A stretch of DNA of 43,989 bases from Ferrovibrio sp. (lineage in GTDB: Bacteria > Pseudomonadota > Alphaproteobacteria > Ferrovibrionales > Ferrovibrionaceae). Location of the stretch: assembly GCF_029255545.1 (NCBI RefSeq), contig NZ_JANLJJ010000030.1:1-43989 (forward strand), in the 5' to 3' direction. The notes beneath the pieces are model-generated. The model was not told the origin of the DNA. It ran no database searches and saw only the letters and a list, made by a program, of their open reading frames with translations. Numbering within the stretch: position 1 is the stretch's first letter; the number at the start of each line of letters is the position of its first letter. A program made the position numbers and the translations under genes. Below, piece by piece: positions 253 to 5,641 of this stretch.

Positions 253-1926
253 ATGGAGCTCGGCGGCGTGCACCAGAATGCGCTGCTCCTGCAGGGTCTC
301 GACCATCTCGATCAGGGCATCAGCATCTTCGATCGGGAGCTGAAACTGATTGCCTGCAACCGTCGTTATCTCGATCTGCTGGGATTCCCGCATGACCTCG
401 GCGTGCCGGGCATTTCCGCTGAACGCTTTTTCCGCCTGAATGCCGAGCGCGGCGAATATGGGCCGGGCGACATCGACACCCTGGTGCGCGAACGCGTCGA
501 ACTGGCGCGACAATTCCTGCCTCATCATCTGGAACGCCAGCGGCCCAACGGCATAATCCTCGATATCCGTGGCACCCCCCTGCCGGGCGGCGGCTGGGTG
601 ACGGTATACAGCGACATTACCGCATCCCGGCGCAATGAACGGGCCTTGCTGCTGGCGCATCAGGAGCTTGAGCGGAAGGTGCTGGAGCGCACCGCCGAAT
701 TGCAGGACCAGAAACGCCTGCTTGACGTGGTGGTGGAGAATATCAGCCATGGCATCACGCTGTTCGACACTGATTTGAAACTGCTGATCTGCAACCAGCG
801 CTTCATGGACCTGCTCGACTATCCGGCTGAACTCGCCAGACCGGGTACGCAATTCGAGAGCTTCGTGCGCTGGAATGCCGAGCATGGCGAATACGACGTG
901 GGCGACGTGGAGGCGATGACCCGGGAAAGGGTCGAACTGGCGCGCCATTTCCTGCCGCACCGGATTCAGCGACGGCGCCCGAACGGGCGGACCATCGAAG
1001 TCATCGGCACCCCGATCCCGGGGGTCGGTTTCGTGACATCCTATTCCGACATCACCGACCTGCGCCGGGCGCAGGACCAGTTGCGCGACCTGGCCGATAC
1101 GCTGGAGACCCGCATCGATGAACGCACCGAAGCGCTGACCCGTTATATCGCCGACCGCGAGGCAACCGAACGCGAATTGCTGCGCGCCAAGGAAATGGCG
1201 GAAGTCGCCAACCGCTCGAAAAGCGCCTTTCTGGCCAACATGAGCCATGAATTCCGCACGCCGCTGAATGCGATCATCGGCTTTTCCGAATCCCTGCTCG
1301 GCGGCTATTTCGGCGCCCTCTCGGCCAAACAGGCGGAATATGTCGATGACATCCATAAATCCGGCATCCACCTGCTGCAGCTGATCAACGACGTGCTCGA
1401 CCTGGCCAAGGTGGAGGCCGGCCGGATGGAGCCGCATGTCGAAATGGTCGACCCGGCCCTGGTGATCGGAGACAGCCTGGAAATGATGCGCGGCCAGGCC
1501 GAGCAGGCCGGCGTGAGTTTGAGCGAGGACCTGCCAGCCGGATTACCGCTGTTGCCAGCGGATGAACGCATGCTGCGGCAGATCCTGCTCAACCTGCTGA
1601 GCAACGCCGTGAAGTTCACGCCGCGCGGCGGCCGCGCCTGGGTGACGGTCCGACCCGATACGGAAACCCTCAGCATCAGCGTGCACGACACCGGCATCGG
1701 CATGGCACCGCAGGATATTCCCAAGGCGCTGGCGCCGTTCGGACAGGTGCGTGGCGTGCTGACGCGCGAACATCAGGGCACCGGACTTGGCCTGCCGCTG
1801 GTGAAATCCCTGACCGAACTGCATGGCGGTCGGCTGGAACTGGCATCGGAGACCGGCCAGGGCACGGTGGCGACGGTGATCCTGCCCTTGCGCAGGATCA
1901 CGCCTGGGCATGGCTCAGGGGCATAA
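253..1926 (+). CDS. Soluble sensor histidine kinase with two PAS domains
   Basis: A 557-residue histidine kinase with no transmembrane segment or signal peptide, so a cytosolic sensor. Order: PAS 1 (about 17-122), a short coiled linker, PAS 2 (about 162-267), a coiled coil (about 270-320), then HisKA with the phospho-acceptor His332 in an [12 protein letters not shown] motif. The HATPase domain follows, with an N box ([11 protein letters not shown]), a G1 box (DTGIGM) and a G2 box (GTGLGL). It would autophosphorylate and pass phosphate to a response regulator, but no regulator gene lies beside it, so its partner is elsewhere. The two PAS domains look like an internal duplication. The ATG at 253 is the first start in frame; no clear Shine-Dalgarno site precedes it. 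Its last 12 bases overlap the convergent peroxidase gene. The sensed signal is unknown. Confidence 0.9.
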
Positions 1927-3129
1927 CCGGCGCGCGTCCGCCCGCCGGGCGGCATAATCGGCGGCCGGCGCATCCAGTGACGCACTGAGGCTGCCCAGAA
2001 AGGCCAGAAGATCATCGATCTCCTGGCGATCCAGCCGCAGCGGCCTGAGGATCGCCTCGCCGTCGCTATGGAGGCGGTCTTCGTCGAGCTCGGAATAATG
2101 CCGCACCACAGATTCCAGGTCGGGCTTGCTGCCATCATGCATGTAAGGCGCGGTGAACAGCAGGCTGCGCAGGGTCGGCACCTTGAATTCCCCCCAATTG
2201 CGGTGCTGCTGCACGACATGTCGCACGGGAATGACGGCGGCAGAACCGGGATCGGCATTGTAGCGCCCCAGGCGGTTGAACGGATTCTCCTTCAGTCGGG
2301 CGATACCGCGATGCCGGCCGGGATCAACCCGGCGGACCCCATCCGCATCAGTGATAAAAAACGGCAGGCCGGTATCATGGAACTCGCCATTGCTGAAAGC
2401 CGGCCCGCTATGGCAGGTGGCGCATTGGCCCCGGCCGGTGAACAATGCCAGGCCACGCTGCGCCGAAGCGGGATAACGCGCCATGGCATCGCGGTCGCCG
2501 GCCAGCACGGCATCGCGGAAATCATCAAAGGCCGTGCGCGGGCTGACCAGGGTTTCCTGGAAAGCCGCCAATGCCCGGGCCGCCAGGACCAGCAGCTCCT
2601 CGTCATTCTGCGCCAACTGTGCTCCGTCCGCCGCATGGCCGGCCAGGCAGGCCAGCACCGGATCGCCGCGCAGCAATGTGGCCGTGGCAACCACGCTGCC
2701 GCCCATCTCACGCGGATCGAGGATCGGACGGATCGCCGCCGCCCACAGGCTGTCGCTGGCGCCATCCCAGCCGAACCAGCGCTGCAACCGGCTGTCGAGC
2801 AGACCCGGCGCATTGCGATCGAGCCGCTCCAGTCCGCGACTGCGCGCTTGGCCATCGGACCAGCCCTGCTGCGGCTGGTGGCAGCTCTGGCAGGCTATGC
2901 CGCCGTCTTTTGACAGGCGCGGCTCGCCAAACAAGGCCGCGCCCAGCAGTACAGCCGATGGACGGCCAGACAGCGGATTGCCGGTATCAGGATGGAAGGC
3001 CGGCGGCCAGGGACCGAAACTGCGGATCAGGCGGAGCTGGGTGGCATCAAAGACCGGCGGCTCAACGGCCTGCGCCCGGCAGGCAGTGACGGTCAGCAAC
3101 AAGGCGAGCCAGACACGGAACAGCATCAT
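1915..3129 (-). CDS. Di-heme cytochrome c peroxidase / MauG-family protein
   Basis: A 404-residue exported di-heme protein. An N-terminal hydrophobic signal (about 1-21) sends it to the periplasm. Two c-type heme sites are visible: CxxCH at 80-84 and CxxCH at 236-240. Trp90 in the GWSDG motif is at the usual bridging-Trp position. Met330 in the APYMHDGS motif is the Met expected as distal ligand of the electron-transfer heme in bacterial cytochrome c peroxidases; MauG has Tyr there. Family members reduce H2O2 or oxidise a partner protein. The ATG overlaps the stop of the upstream YtkA-like gene by 4 bases, so the two are translationally coupled. That pairing suggests the small protein is a partner or substrate, which is an inference. 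Confidence 0.88.
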
Positions 3130-3530
3130 TGGGCATCGAAACGGAAACTCAGCTGTTCCTCGCGCTCAAGGGCGATGAAATCGAACGCGAACTCCCATTC
3201 ACCCGGCATATGCAGCAGCAGCCCTTCGGCGCGGTAATGCCCCCAGTCGAGCTTGGTGAGGCTTGGCGCATAATTCATGCCGTGGCGATGCGCCGGCATC
3301 CAGGCATCGACCCGCACCAGTCGCGGCAATTCGGCCATGCGGGCATCGCAGAGCCGGATGTCGAAGGCGAATGGCGCATTGAGCGGGATCGGCATGGGAT
3401 CAGACAGCACGACCAGCTTGAAACGCGGCCCTTCGATCACCCGCGCCGCGATTGGAATCTGCTCACAGGCCGCTGCCGGCAGAACAGGCAGAACCAGCAA
3501 GGTGGCGGCCAGAAACAATGCCCGCCGCAT
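3126..3530 (-). CDS. Small exported YtkA/FixH-like protein, possible metal binder
   Basis: A 134-residue protein with a signal peptide (about 1-21, cleavage likely after an Ala-Ala-Ala run) and a single beta-sandwich-like domain typical of YtkA/FixH-type proteins. Conserved-looking residues are Trp77, His81, His83 and Met85 in a WMPAHRHGMNY stretch and His107-Met108 in LLHMPGEWEF. These are the kinds of residues that bind copper in related periplasmic proteins; I infer rather than see metal binding. The ATG at 3530 is chosen because it begins a clean signal peptide, lies 8 bases after the amidohydrolase stop, and excludes a non-conserved 112-residue extension that overlaps that gene. The stop overlaps the start of the di-heme peroxidase. 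It is probably a periplasmic partner of that enzyme. Confidence 0.75.
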   Translation of the reverse strand: MRRALFLAATLLVLPVLPAAACEQIPIAARVIEGPRFKLVVLSDPMPIPLNAPFAFDIRLCDARMAELPRLVRVDAWMPAHRHGMNYAPSLTKLDWGHYRAEGLLLHMPGEWEFAFDFIALEREEQLSFRFDAQ

Positions 3531-3538
3531 CGCCGGCC

Positions 3539-4405
3539 TCAATCCACTGGCCGGAAGCCGGTGCGGGCAAACAGCGCCTCGGCATTGCGCCAGGCGATCT
3601 TCTCGGCCAGCGGCCTGGGCAGGTTGGCGAGCCAGCCGCGCGACCATTTGGCGTGCTCCTCGATATAGAACCAGCGTTCCGGCGTGAACGTGTCGGTGCC
3701 GACCATGAAGCGGTCGGGAAATTCCTCGAACAGAGCCCGCCAGGCCGGATCGACCTGGCCCTGTGCGGCATGATCGTTGCGGAAAGCCAGATCGGCCCAG
3801 AGCGCAGGGTGGCGTCGCAACATGACGCGCACCGCATCGGGGCGGTCGAAACCGGAATGGGCCCACAGGATCAGCGCCTGCGGATCGTGCCTGAACAGCC
3901 GCTCAACCGCGTCGGCATCGCTGTGGGCATGCAGGAACAGCTTGTGCTGCCGGGCCAGCGCCACCACGCGCTTGAGCACGGGCAGATCGGCATCGGCGCC
4001 ATAGACATGGAACTCACCGATCCCGACGTATTTGTATTTCGCCAGCCGCGCCTCGATATGCTGCAGCACGGTTTCATCCCGCATCCAGCTGCCGATCTCG
4101 CCGCGGCTGCGATAGGGCCGCAATTCCGGCACGATCAGGTCGGGGGCGGCCTGGTAGAGCTTCTGGGTGCCATCGTCGCTGGAACTGGAGACCAGCACCT
4201 TGCGCAGGCCGGCGCGGCGCAGGATGGCGATGGCGTCTTCGGTCGGCACCATCTGCCAGGCATCATGGCTGTAATGCACATGGGCGTCGATCAGCGGCAG
4301 GATGGCCGGCTGGGCGGCCGCCGGCACGGCTGCAATAATGGCTGCAATAATGGCTGCAATAACGGCCGACAGCATGGCGATGGCAGAAAGGCTGTGCCGA
4401 ATCAT
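3539..4405 (-). CDS. Exported amidohydrolase-superfamily protein
   Basis: A 288-residue protein with a signal peptide (1-31, ending AAAQ) followed by a TIM-barrel metal-dependent hydrolase. The first metal motif is His42-x-His44 in DAHVHYSHD. Later barrel motifs include LHAHSD, WAHSGFDRP and MVGTDTF, which supply the remaining His and Asp ligands expected in the amidohydrolase_2 group. The substrate cannot be read from the sequence. It is the first gene of a three-gene minus-strand operon with the YtkA-like protein and the di-heme peroxidase, so the product acts in the same compartment. GGAG lies 7 bases before the ATG. The hydrophobic core of the signal peptide is encoded by three copies of a 12-bp repeat. 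Confidence 0.75.
   Translation of the reverse strand: MIRHSLSAIAMLSAVIAAIIAAIIAAVPAAAQPAILPLIDAHVHYSHDAWQMVPTEDAIAILRRAGLRKVLVSSSSDDGTQKLYQAAPDLIVPELRPYRSRGEIGSWMRDETVLQHIEARLAKYKYVGIGEFHVYGADADLPVLKRVVALARQHKLFLHAHSDADAVERLFRHDPQALILWAHSGFDRPDAVRVMLRRHPALWADLAFRNDHAAQGQVDPAWRALFEEFPDRFMVGTDTFTPERWFYIEEHAKWSRGWLANLPRPLAEKIAWRNAEALFARTGFRPVD
4328..4363. repeat. Three 12-bp tandem repeats inside a signal-peptide coding region
   Basis: The unit GGCTGCAATAAT occurs at 4328-4339 and 4340-4351, and again at 4352-4363 with one change (final C). Read on the minus strand it encodes V/I-I-A-A three times, residues 15-26 of the amidohydrolase, in the hydrophobic core of its signal peptide. Because the unit is a multiple of three, copy-number changes would lengthen or shorten the core by four residues without a frameshift. 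Confidence 0.9.
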
Positions 4406-4473
4406 TCGTCTGCTCCGTCTGACCGGCGCAGTTTACGCCAGAAAGCGGCTTTGCCATCGTGACAAATACGACA

Positions 4474-4501
4474 GCGGCCCCGCAGGTTGCTGCAGGGCCG
4501 C
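4474..4501 (-). terminator. GC-rich hairpin, probable end of the ABC transporter operon
   Basis: GCGGCCC (4474-4480) pairs with GGGCCGC (4495-4501), extended inward by GCAG/CTGC across one mismatch. It lies 27 bases after the stop of the MetE-like gene on the minus strand. Only a weakly T-rich stretch (TGTCGTATTTG) follows, so termination may be partial or Rho-assisted. Confidence 0.5.
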
Positions 4502-4528
4502 CGGGATACGCTGCCGCGACTCGACCGG

Positions 4529-5641
4529 TCAGGCCTTGCCCCAGACCTCTTCGGCCAGCTCGACGATCATGCGCAGCTTGGCCCATTGCTCGTCCTCGGC
4601 CAGCACATTGCCTTCCTCCGTGCTGGCGAAACCACATTGCGGGCTGAGGCAGAGCTGGTCGAGATCGGCGAACTTGCTGGCCTGCTCGATGCGCCGTTTC
4701 AGGGCATCCTTCGATTCCAGCGAGCCCGTCTTGGTGGTGACCAGGCCAAGCACCACCGTCTTGTGGCCCTTGGGCAGATAGCGCAATGGCTCAAAGCCGC
4801 CGGAGCGCTCGTTGTCGTATTCCATGAAATAGCCATCGACCTTGATCTTGTCGAGCAGCACTTCGGCCACCGGCTCGTAGCCGCCCTTGGAAATATAGGT
4901 CGAGCGGAAATTGCCGCGGCAGAGATGCATCGAGATCACCATATCGGCCGGGCGGTCGGCGATGGCGGTATTGATCATCTCGGCATATTTCATCGGCAGC
5001 GAATCCGGGTCGTCGCCGCGCTGGCGCGACAGTTCGCGCTGCTCGGGGTCGCACAGATAAGCCAGGTTGGTTTCATCCAGCTGCAGGTAGCGGCAGCCGG
5101 CGGCGGCGAAATCCTGCACTGCCTTTTTGTAGGCCTGGCCGAGATCACGGAAAAACTCGTCGAGATTGGGATAGAGGTCGCGGCTGATCGCGTTACGGCC
5201 GCTGCGGAAATGCAGCACGCTCGGCGACGGAATGGTCATCTTCGGCGTCTGCCTGGTATGCGCCTTGAGAAATTTGAAATGCTCGATCATCGGATGGCCG
5301 GAATAGCCGATCTTGCCGGTCACCCGCACGCCTTCCGCCCGGGTCTGCACGCCGGCAAACTGGATGCCCTTGTCGGCCGAGGTGTAGTATTCGACGCCAT
5401 CGAGATACCCAAGGAAATCGAAATGCCACCAGGAGCGCCGGAATTCGCCATCCGTGACGCTCTTGAGGCCGATCTCTTCCTGGCGCCGGATGACATATTC
5501 GATCGCCTTGTCCTCGACGGCCTTGAGTTGCTCCGCGCTGATCTTGCCCTCTTTGCGCTGGGCACGCGCCTCTTTCAATTCAGCGGTGCGCAGCAGGCTG
5601 CCAACATGGTCGGCGCGGAATGGCGGTTTGGTCCGTTGCAT
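4529..5641 (-). CDS. Short MetE-like (cobalamin-independent methionine synthase family) methyltransferase
   Basis: A 370-residue protein equivalent to the catalytic barrel of MetE without the N-terminal domain, like the YxjG/YxjH group. The zinc and thiol-activating site is complete: His239-x-Cys241 (MHLC), Glu274 (FMEYD) and Cys336 (SPQCGF). An N-terminal DHVGSLLR motif and an LDET motif (Asp189-Glu190) are typical. The family moves a methyl group to homocysteine or another thiol; for the short forms the methyl donor is often unknown. The start lies 19 bases after the livF-type ATPase stop on the same strand, so it belongs to the ABC transporter operon. This suggests the imported compound may be a methyl donor or sulfur compound (inference). 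A housekeeping methionine synthase role is the alternative. Confidence 0.82.
   Translation of the reverse strand: MQRTKPPFRADHVGSLLRTAELKEARAQRKEGKISAEQLKAVEDKAIEYVIRRQEEIGLKSVTDGEFRRSWWHFDFLGYLDGVEYYTSADKGIQFAGVQTRAEGVRVTGKIGYSGHPMIEHFKFLKAHTRQTPKMTIPSPSVLHFRSGRNAISRDLYPNLDEFFRDLGQAYKKAVQDFAAAGCRYLQLDETNLAYLCDPEQRELSRQRGDDPDSLPMKYAEMINTAIADRPADMVISMHLCRGNFRSTYISKGGYEPVAEVLLDKIKVDGYFMEYDNERSGGFEPLRYLPKGHKTVVLGLVTTKTGSLESKDALKRRIEQASKFADLDQLCLSPQCGFASTEEGNVLAEDEQWAKLRMIVELAEEVWGKA

Follow-up and report, generated by a model that had tools for sequence, protein, structure and literature searches.

To our knowledge, there are few systems in which a MauG-type enzyme is known to rebuild amino acids of its partner. 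In one of them, the di-heme enzyme MbnH reportedly oxidises its small partner MbnP, by which a metal site is made or tuned. Here we describe a gene pair of related design from Ferrovibrio sp. (positions 1 to 43,989 of contig NZ_JANLJJ010000030.1, the whole stretch being referred to below as the window), which encodes a di-heme enzyme of the CCP_MauG family and a small exported protein with a predicted YtkA/CrdA fold. The pairing of these genes in relatives, together with their fusions, suggests at the sequence level one more kind of copper protein that has an oxidising enzyme to itself.

The MbnP/MbnH gene pair is conserved far outside methanobactin producers according to PMC3621798. It resembles the present locus in that a partner protein is encoded beside a di-heme MauG-like enzyme. 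It differs in that the small protein here has no match among the NCBIfam models, MbnP (TIGR04052) included, up to E 1, while the enzyme scores 119 bits on the MbnH model TIGR04039 (cut-off 362.85) and is separated, on the enzyme tree described below, from the single MbnH included. In methanotrophs, CorA/CorB and MopE/SACCP likewise combine a copper protein, with a two-His copper site, and a co-transcribed di-heme enzyme, and oxidation of CorA by CorB, to make or tune its metal site, has been proposed (PMC3912023). The Trp-derived kynurenine 62 of CorA lies two residues from His64, whereas here the Trp at the side of the loop (Trp77, four residues before His81) is not conserved and conserved Met residues flank the His pair; moreover, YtkA is the only Pfam match of the present small protein. 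MauG itself was the first PDB match of our enzyme profile by a small margin, and its Tyr294, Trp93, Pro107 and Glu113 have equivalents here; however, the enzyme scores 168 bits on the MauG equivalog TIGR03791 against a cut-off of 443.85, and no mau gene was found among the five window genes scanned with Pfam. Elsewhere in the genome, neither PF02975 (methylamine dehydrogenase small subunit) nor MbnP was matched, the control genomes being equally silent. The parallel with CorA/CorB, MopE/SACCP and MbnP/MbnH is one of functional resemblance; the small protein does not match the MbnP model, and the enzyme stays below the cut-offs for MbnH and MauG.

As for the small protein, CrdA of Helicobacter pylori and YtkA/CtaK share its predicted fold, its sequence profile and a patch formed by Met108 and Trp112. 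CrdA has a Met-rich loop and is devoid of His (PMC9182242), whereas the present loop, MPAHRHGM, carries His-x-His in place of Met and comes with a di-heme enzyme. Binding of Cu(II) by CrdA has been measured and a tighter binding of Cu(I) proposed (PMC9182242); in Bacillus, YtkA domains contribute, in part redundantly, to the assembly of copper-A (PMC13344008). BthA of Burkholderia is a His/Tyr-ligated di-heme enzyme, as the present one is predicted to be, and its gene likewise has a conserved partner, but that partner is a putative phosphatase, and Ser257 lies between the hemes where the present enzyme has Trp121 (PMC6405878). With its His/Tyr ligation, BthA turns over H2O2 and acts as a peroxidase (PMC6405878). 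Finally, in the mtoX-SCO1-mauG arrangement a MauG-like gene stands beside a copper protein and a copper chaperone, the presumed target being, in contrast, an SBP56-type methanethiol oxidase (PMC5739008). The enzymes from two of our own loci with upstream open reading frames (ORFs) judged by eye to be SBP56 (L134, L135; L numbers denote fetched loci) branch elsewhere on the tree described below.

Layout of the locus and recurrence of the gene pair

The two genes overlap by 4 bases, as an earlier note on this DNA had described, and both ORFs were confirmed on rechecking of their coordinates (1915-3129 and 3126-3530). That note left out an amidohydrolase gene which lies upstream of the small gene with a gap of 8 bases, so that three genes stand in a row on the minus strand. 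Small proteins and enzymes alike split into two branches, MNY (MPxHxHGMNY, including the window) and LPT (MPxHxHGLPT), and the amidohydrolase is part of the module in the former.

1915..3129, minus strand: di-heme enzyme of the CCP_MauG family (by Pfam and PDB profile match), 404 amino acids (aa), with a signal sequence and a heme environment of MauG type
2095..2100, minus strand: His344-Tyr345 of the enzyme; Tyr345 aligns with Tyr294 of MauG, which is its distal heme ligand
2410..2424, minus strand: CATCH, the second heme-binding motif (residues 236-240), with H240 opposite the His of the second CXXCH in MauG
2743..2778, minus strand: enzyme residues 118-129, with the clade-specific Trp118 and Trp129 around Trp121 (Trp93 of MauG)
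2878..2892, minus strand: CQSCH, the first heme-binding motif (residues 80-84), with H84 opposite the His of the first CXXCH in MauG
3126..3129, minus strand: 4-base overlap of the small gene and the enzyme gene
3126..3530, minus strand: small exported protein of the YtkA/CrdA fold, 134 aa, a probable copper binder judging from sequence and model
3195..3209, minus strand: MPGEW, residues 108-112, second conserved patch with Met108 and Trp112, retained in unpaired YtkA domains too
3270..3311, minus strand: VDAWMPAHRHGMNY loop, residues 74-87; Met78, His81 and His83 are conserved, Trp77 is not
3539..4405, minus strand: exported amidohydrolase (Amidohydro_2; 34.1 bits in Pfam against a cut-off of 26.4), which in the MNY branch is the third member of the module

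The co-occurrence search that the earlier note had called for shows the pair to recur widely and far above chance. A di-heme ORF lies directly downstream, on the same strand, in 62 of the 64 loci picked by a motif of the small protein, and the small gene is present at 22 of the 23 places picked by the enzyme profile. The motif was M[PLA]xHxH plus MxGxW, and counts of Met108 and Trp112 in this set are thus given by construction. The 64 loci were drawn from named-genome, phylum and two class scans, with at most 30 loci fetched per genome scan, and are without L001, L012 and L025 (the window) and L055 and L056 (repeats); some sequences fetched more than once (L004/L027/L090; L006/L028) still leave repeats inside the 64 loci, the 62 pairs and the 26 MNY loci considered below, the last of which also include the window. 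The named-genome scan with the small protein gave 10 loci; in L002 to L010 the small gene is followed at once by the di-heme gene, and L011 is truncated by the contig edge. Scans with the small-protein profile matched 13 of 398 genomes of the phylum, 33 of 385 in the class of the window and 41 of 369 in a second class (that of G122), both class figures including YtkA proteins of other kinds. The enzyme-first places comprise 9 above 389 bits (190 genomes) and 14 above 342 bits (185 genomes), the next tier reaching at most 234 bits; a 450-base match, G559:C35, was left out of the count.

The exceptions are few. Among the motif loci, L074 has no enzyme downstream, a di-heme ORF being found in L124 about 1.5 kb off on the opposite strand (L124 has the loop variant GMNT and no amidohydrolase), and for L072 the sole counterpart in L122 is a 275-aa ORF on the upstream side that has the cluster label of the enzyme. 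In the enzyme-first exception, L171, the profile did not detect a small domain, and an N-terminal stretch resembles by eye a decayed YtkA domain. Conversely, L068, which adjoins an enzyme and has His-x-His, was dropped by the motif filter solely for its MRGHGHG. The pair was found in Alphaproteobacteria, Burkholderiales and further genomes of the phylum; a plasmid of Cereibacter azotoformans carries both pair and motif, its two genes bearing the labels 'FixH family protein' and 'cytochrome c peroxidase'. A literature search, with subscription papers largely outside its reach, found no paper describing a YtkA-type/di-heme pair.

The small protein and its loop

The small protein begins with a signal sequence (judged by eye), and its sole Pfam match up to E 1 is YtkA (PF13115), at 21.6 bits and E 3.5e-4, under the gathering score of 25.9 bits; the fused protein of L174, at 32.0 bits, exceeds it. 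The description of the protein as YtkA-like, with Trp77 beside an AHRHGM motif, agrees with the sequence, the YtkA match being weak and below the cut-off. As a single query it found no match in the PDB up to E 10. Its AlphaFold model is all beta, with a mean pLDDT (predicted local distance difference test) of 82, and CrdA of H. pylori was its best solved match in three ways (Foldseek E 3.5e-5, profile E 1.3e-5, VIA-align Z 11.8). Superposition of CrdA on this predicted model aligned 100 residues with a root-mean-square deviation of 2.3 (VIA-align; next entry Z 9.6), and the copper proteins FetP, P19 and FtrA came further down the fold list.

The stretch around the loop reads Trp77-Met78-Pro-Ala-His81-Arg-His83-Gly-Met85. 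Met78, His81, His83, Gly84, Met108 and Trp112 are found in all 24 linked domains chosen without the motif, and Trp77 in 4 of them. These domains, detected by the A5 profile, are those of 22 enzyme-first rows and of the fusions L174 and L175; three rows were set aside, one being an extra domain of L145 and the others spurious N-terminal matches. For comparison, the same scans yielded 12 distinct unpaired YtkA loci (L014, L054, L075-L084; flanks of about 1.5 kb), several of which look by eye like copper-efflux adaptors. In none of the 12 does the loop show the His-x-His of MPxHxHG: Met mostly occupies the His places, and three loci (L076, L080, L081) have the first loop His without the second. 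Nor is there an enzyme-length di-heme ORF within their flanks, although three (L075, L077, L078) hold a 217-234-aa ORF with two CXXCH. All 15 domains encoded at these 12 loci have a Trp equivalent to Trp112, as does CrdA. It is therefore the His pair, and not a Trp, that tracks the enzyme. Trp112 was rejected as evidence of a pair-specific residue, since unpaired YtkA domains keep it.

The earlier note had proposed that the enzyme modifies Trp77, and had said that the lack of a conserved Trp in homologues beside the enzyme would speak against this. For Trp77, such a lack is what we found. The position is Trp in 18 of the 64 motif loci, all of them MNY (18/34), with three changes on a tree of 37 rows; it is Gly in 25 of the 30 motif loci outside the MNY branch, and His in two members of the genus of the window (L087 and L088; L035 and L043 in the motif set), which have all three genes in place. 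In a first alignment Trp77 had appeared in 9 of 9 rows, though those loci had been found with patterns containing VDAWMPAH. Not being conserved in homologues beside the enzyme, Trp77 fails as a general mechanism and was rejected as a conserved substrate. What survives of the earlier proposal of an enzyme with a small partner of a new family is the MauG-type enzyme and its dedicated partner, which is not MbnP; the Trp77 target does not.

The enzyme, its two branches and neighbouring genes

Pfam CCP_MauG (PF03150) matches the enzyme at 114.6 bits against a gathering score of 25.6 (E 8.1e-33), and CXXCH motifs at residues 80 and 236 complete the features of the superfamily; a search of the genome with the enzyme returned the window copy as the sole match at E <= 0.001. 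When a profile of 19 linked enzymes was searched against the PDB, the matches were MauG (1.7e-43, 152 bits), MbnH (4.1e-43, 151 bits) and cytochrome c peroxidase (CCP; 8.1e-42, 147 bits). In the alignment of this profile to MauG, Tyr345 corresponds to Tyr294, Trp121 to Trp93, Pro135 to Pro107 and Glu141 to Glu113. Trp93 is the inter-heme Trp of MauG and Glu113 its distal Glu, and the presence of Tyr345, Trp121 and Glu141 would assign the enzyme to the MauG type.

In bacterial CCPs, a Met is the distal ligand of the C-terminal heme and a distal His serves the N-terminal heme. Here, Tyr345 stands opposite the Met of 3o5c and 1iqc (A-D-x and TMGRIQ stretches), Leu100 stands opposite the His of SIGHKW in 1iqc, and no His occurs between residues 84 and 165. 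Wherever a linked row has a residue at position 345, that residue is Tyr (35 MNY rows, with 2 gaps, and 29/29 LPT rows). Because the position is also Tyr in 28/28 out-group enzymes, it marks the MauG-type side and is not special to the linked group. In the earlier note, a distal Met330 had been read as pointing to the peroxidase branch. This residue sits in PYMH and is Met in all 28 out-group enzymes as well, MauG and MbnH among them, and it is Gly in four and Phe in five linked enzymes; it was rejected as a heme ligand, the ligand position being that of Tyr345. Specific to the linked enzymes are Trp118 (64/66) and Trp129 (66/66), each found in none of the 28 out-group rows. An extra Cys pair, recalling the disulfide of BthA, is present in 28 of 29 LPT enzymes and in none of 37 MNY enzymes.

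On a tree of 95 enzymes, MNY and LPT each form one side of a branch (Shimodaira-Hasegawa-like approximate likelihood ratio test, SH-aLRT, 100 and 99) and are jointly set apart from the 28 others (SH-aLRT 97). These 28 comprise single examples of MauG, MbnH and a PhoX-linked enzyme besides 25 further enzymes; the tree was built by a quick method with a midpoint root, includes no classical bacterial CCP and represents MauG and MbnH by single rows. On this tree the nearest relative of the window's enzyme is one from a Ferrovibrio metagenome-assembled genome, which would place the genome of the window probably within or close to that genus.

The amidohydrolase gene immediately precedes the small gene in each of the 26 MNY loci examined (L002-L009, L085-L096, L099-L104, including the window) and, within the flanks examined, in none of 21 LPT loci. 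The same 26 loci have a Cys pair ahead of the loop (Cys22/Cys61 in the window), which perhaps forms a disulfide. In the amidohydrolase, His and Asp residues of the metal-binding kind are conserved in the 13 sequences compared (the 12 loci, out of 31, that passed the filter, plus the window), and a search of the PDB gave no significant solved relative (best E 0.11). Fusions were encountered on both sides of the small protein. In L174 it is joined to the enzyme in one protein of 625 aa (YtkA 32.0 bits, CCP_MauG 123.3 bits), whereas in L173 and L175 amidohydrolase and small protein form one ORF (405 and 397 aa) that is followed by the di-heme gene; here the small domain was recognised by profile in both and the amidohydrolase by Pfam in L173. 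Each neighbour of the small protein is therefore fused to it somewhere.

Several further observations concern these loci and their surroundings. A His-rich stretch precedes the YtkA domain of the fused protein (L174:7671-9548). In the window, the signal sequence of the amidohydrolase (AAIIAAIIAA) contains about 3 in-frame copies of a 12-base tandem repeat (4328-4366), the length of which could differ between strains, and a histidine kinase gene with two PAS_7 matches (253-1926, plus strand) is convergent with the enzyme gene, overlapping it by 12 bases (1915-1926). Giant ORFs with two CXXCH and the blast-cluster label of the enzyme adjoin the pair in two LPT loci (L109:154-9711, 3185 aa; L120:1023-8483, 2486 aa). 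When eight neighbour proteins from LPT loci were scanned for a copper neighbourhood, one proved to be a copper amine oxidase (PF01179, 2.2e-44), encoded directly upstream of the pair (L121:10097-12439). A calcineurin-like phosphoesterase lies upstream of another LPT pair (L116:9838-12066), the upstream gene in L123 has only a sub-threshold match to a 5'-nucleotidase C-terminal domain, and the other neighbour clusters recurring in at least 3 loci are C3 to C13. Two different di-heme genes stand in tandem in L136, L139 and L140, apparently a recurring arrangement. In L178, a di-heme gene beside an MbnP gene (4001-5152) is publicly labelled 'methanobactin export MATE transporter MbnM', apparently in error.

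What the module may do

We tentatively favour, at a confidence somewhat short of probable, a copper protein served by a MauG-type oxidase of its own, which would most likely act upon that protein close to the copper loop. Pointing to this are the near-obligate pairing, the fusions, the single group formed by the linked enzymes, the correlated distances of small proteins and enzymes, the Tyr at the ligand position, the conserved loop residues and the likeness of the predicted model to CrdA. The module would probably be a periplasmic unit, as the signal sequences suggest. Its small protein, a beta-sandwich of the CrdA/YtkA kind, probably holds copper, to judge from fold and loop residues, in a site of His2Met2 type made of Met78, His81, His83 and Met108; Trp112 is close in sequence to these predicted site residues. 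The di-heme enzyme, by analogy with its relatives, may contain two unlike hemes separated by Trp121, one of them open and reactive towards peroxide, the other ligated by His and Tyr. It would be dedicated to the small protein and most likely oxidise it at or beside the copper loop, so that the metal site is made or tuned; enzyme on small protein is the most likely direction of action. As the oxidised residue, Trp77 is very unlikely and Trp112 possible. A more elaborate version, to which we give little credence, has Trp118 and Trp129 as the exit for hole hopping, Trp112 or a Met or His of the loop as the residue oxidised, and the MNY amidohydrolase as the enzyme that finishes the product, for example by deformylating N-formylkynurenine.

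A number of points weigh against an enzyme that modifies its partner. The lead of MauG in the profile search is small (152 vs 151 vs 147 bits), and with the window enzyme as sole query the peroxidases rank above MauG (99.6 bits for 3o5c, 68.9 for the best MauG). Tyr ligation is no proof of protein modification, being shared by BthA, a peroxidase, and by all 28 out-group enzymes, and the predicted model of the enzyme is poor (pLDDT 60). No Trp is both universal in the paired proteins and special to them, and the conservation of Trp112 may be structural. The distances among small proteins correlate with those among enzymes (r 0.90 over 62 pairs, with 0 of 2000 permutations as high; r 0.82 in MNY, 0.92 in LPT), yet this could be explained by shared species history alone, which the permutation test leaves in. 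Pairing and fusion fit a redox-partner relation equally well. In the CorA system, moreover, a mutant without the di-heme gene grew faster, and in the view of its authors the copper protein still bound copper (PMC3912023). Since BthA works as a peroxidase and a CorA-type di-heme enzyme is maybe dispensable for copper binding, sequence cannot settle the mechanism.

The alternative to be taken most seriously, though in our view less likely, is that of redox partners, in which a BthA-like peroxidase or Cu(I) oxidase takes electrons from the copper-loaded small protein, or oxidises its Cu(I) to Cu(II), with no covalent change. The peroxidase activity of BthA (PMC6405878) and the copper binding of CrdA (PMC9182242) both suit this picture, as do a conserved Met/His loop apt for redox copper, the one-chain fusion in L174, the BthA-like Cys pair of the LPT enzymes and the first rank of CCPs in the single-sequence search. 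However, the one-to-one pairing and the gene overlap resemble MbnH/MbnP and CorB/CorA. The small copper electron donors of peroxidases are, besides, known mainly as cupredoxins, which are another family. Improbable, to a greater degree, is a module that serves the amidohydrolase, the small protein delivering or holding its metal and the di-heme enzyme protecting or activating it: the invariable presence of the gene in MNY, its fusions with the small gene and its conserved metal-binding-kind residues agree with such a role, but LPT loci lack it within their flanks and yet all or nearly all keep the pair. That the enzyme turns Trp77 into a copper ligand, as in MbnP, has very little left to recommend it. 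The residue adjoins the Met/His loop, its occurrences group together on the tree, and the pattern-selected first alignment had favoured it, but its replacement by His in congeners that keep the enzyme, and by Gly in most loci outside MNY, refutes it as a general mechanism. Least credible of all is an ordinary CCP beside an unrelated FixH/YtkA gene by chance, for which the public annotation of the Cereibacter relative speaks; the recurrent pairing, the fusions and the single tree group contradict this, and so do the Tyr at the place of the Met ligand and the missing distal His.

The near-obligate pair, built on an unrelated, probably copper-binding scaffold, offers a clean new way of testing how MauG-type enzymes find their substrates. 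The exchange of Met for His in the loop, co-occurring with the enzyme, provides a concrete handle on the purpose of the latter, and genes now annotated 'cytochrome c peroxidase' and 'FixH family protein' would acquire a meaning. Should the route through Trp118 and Trp129, with finishing by the amidohydrolase, prove true, the pair would stand for one more copper-protein family, of independent origin, whose ligand is made by an enzyme.

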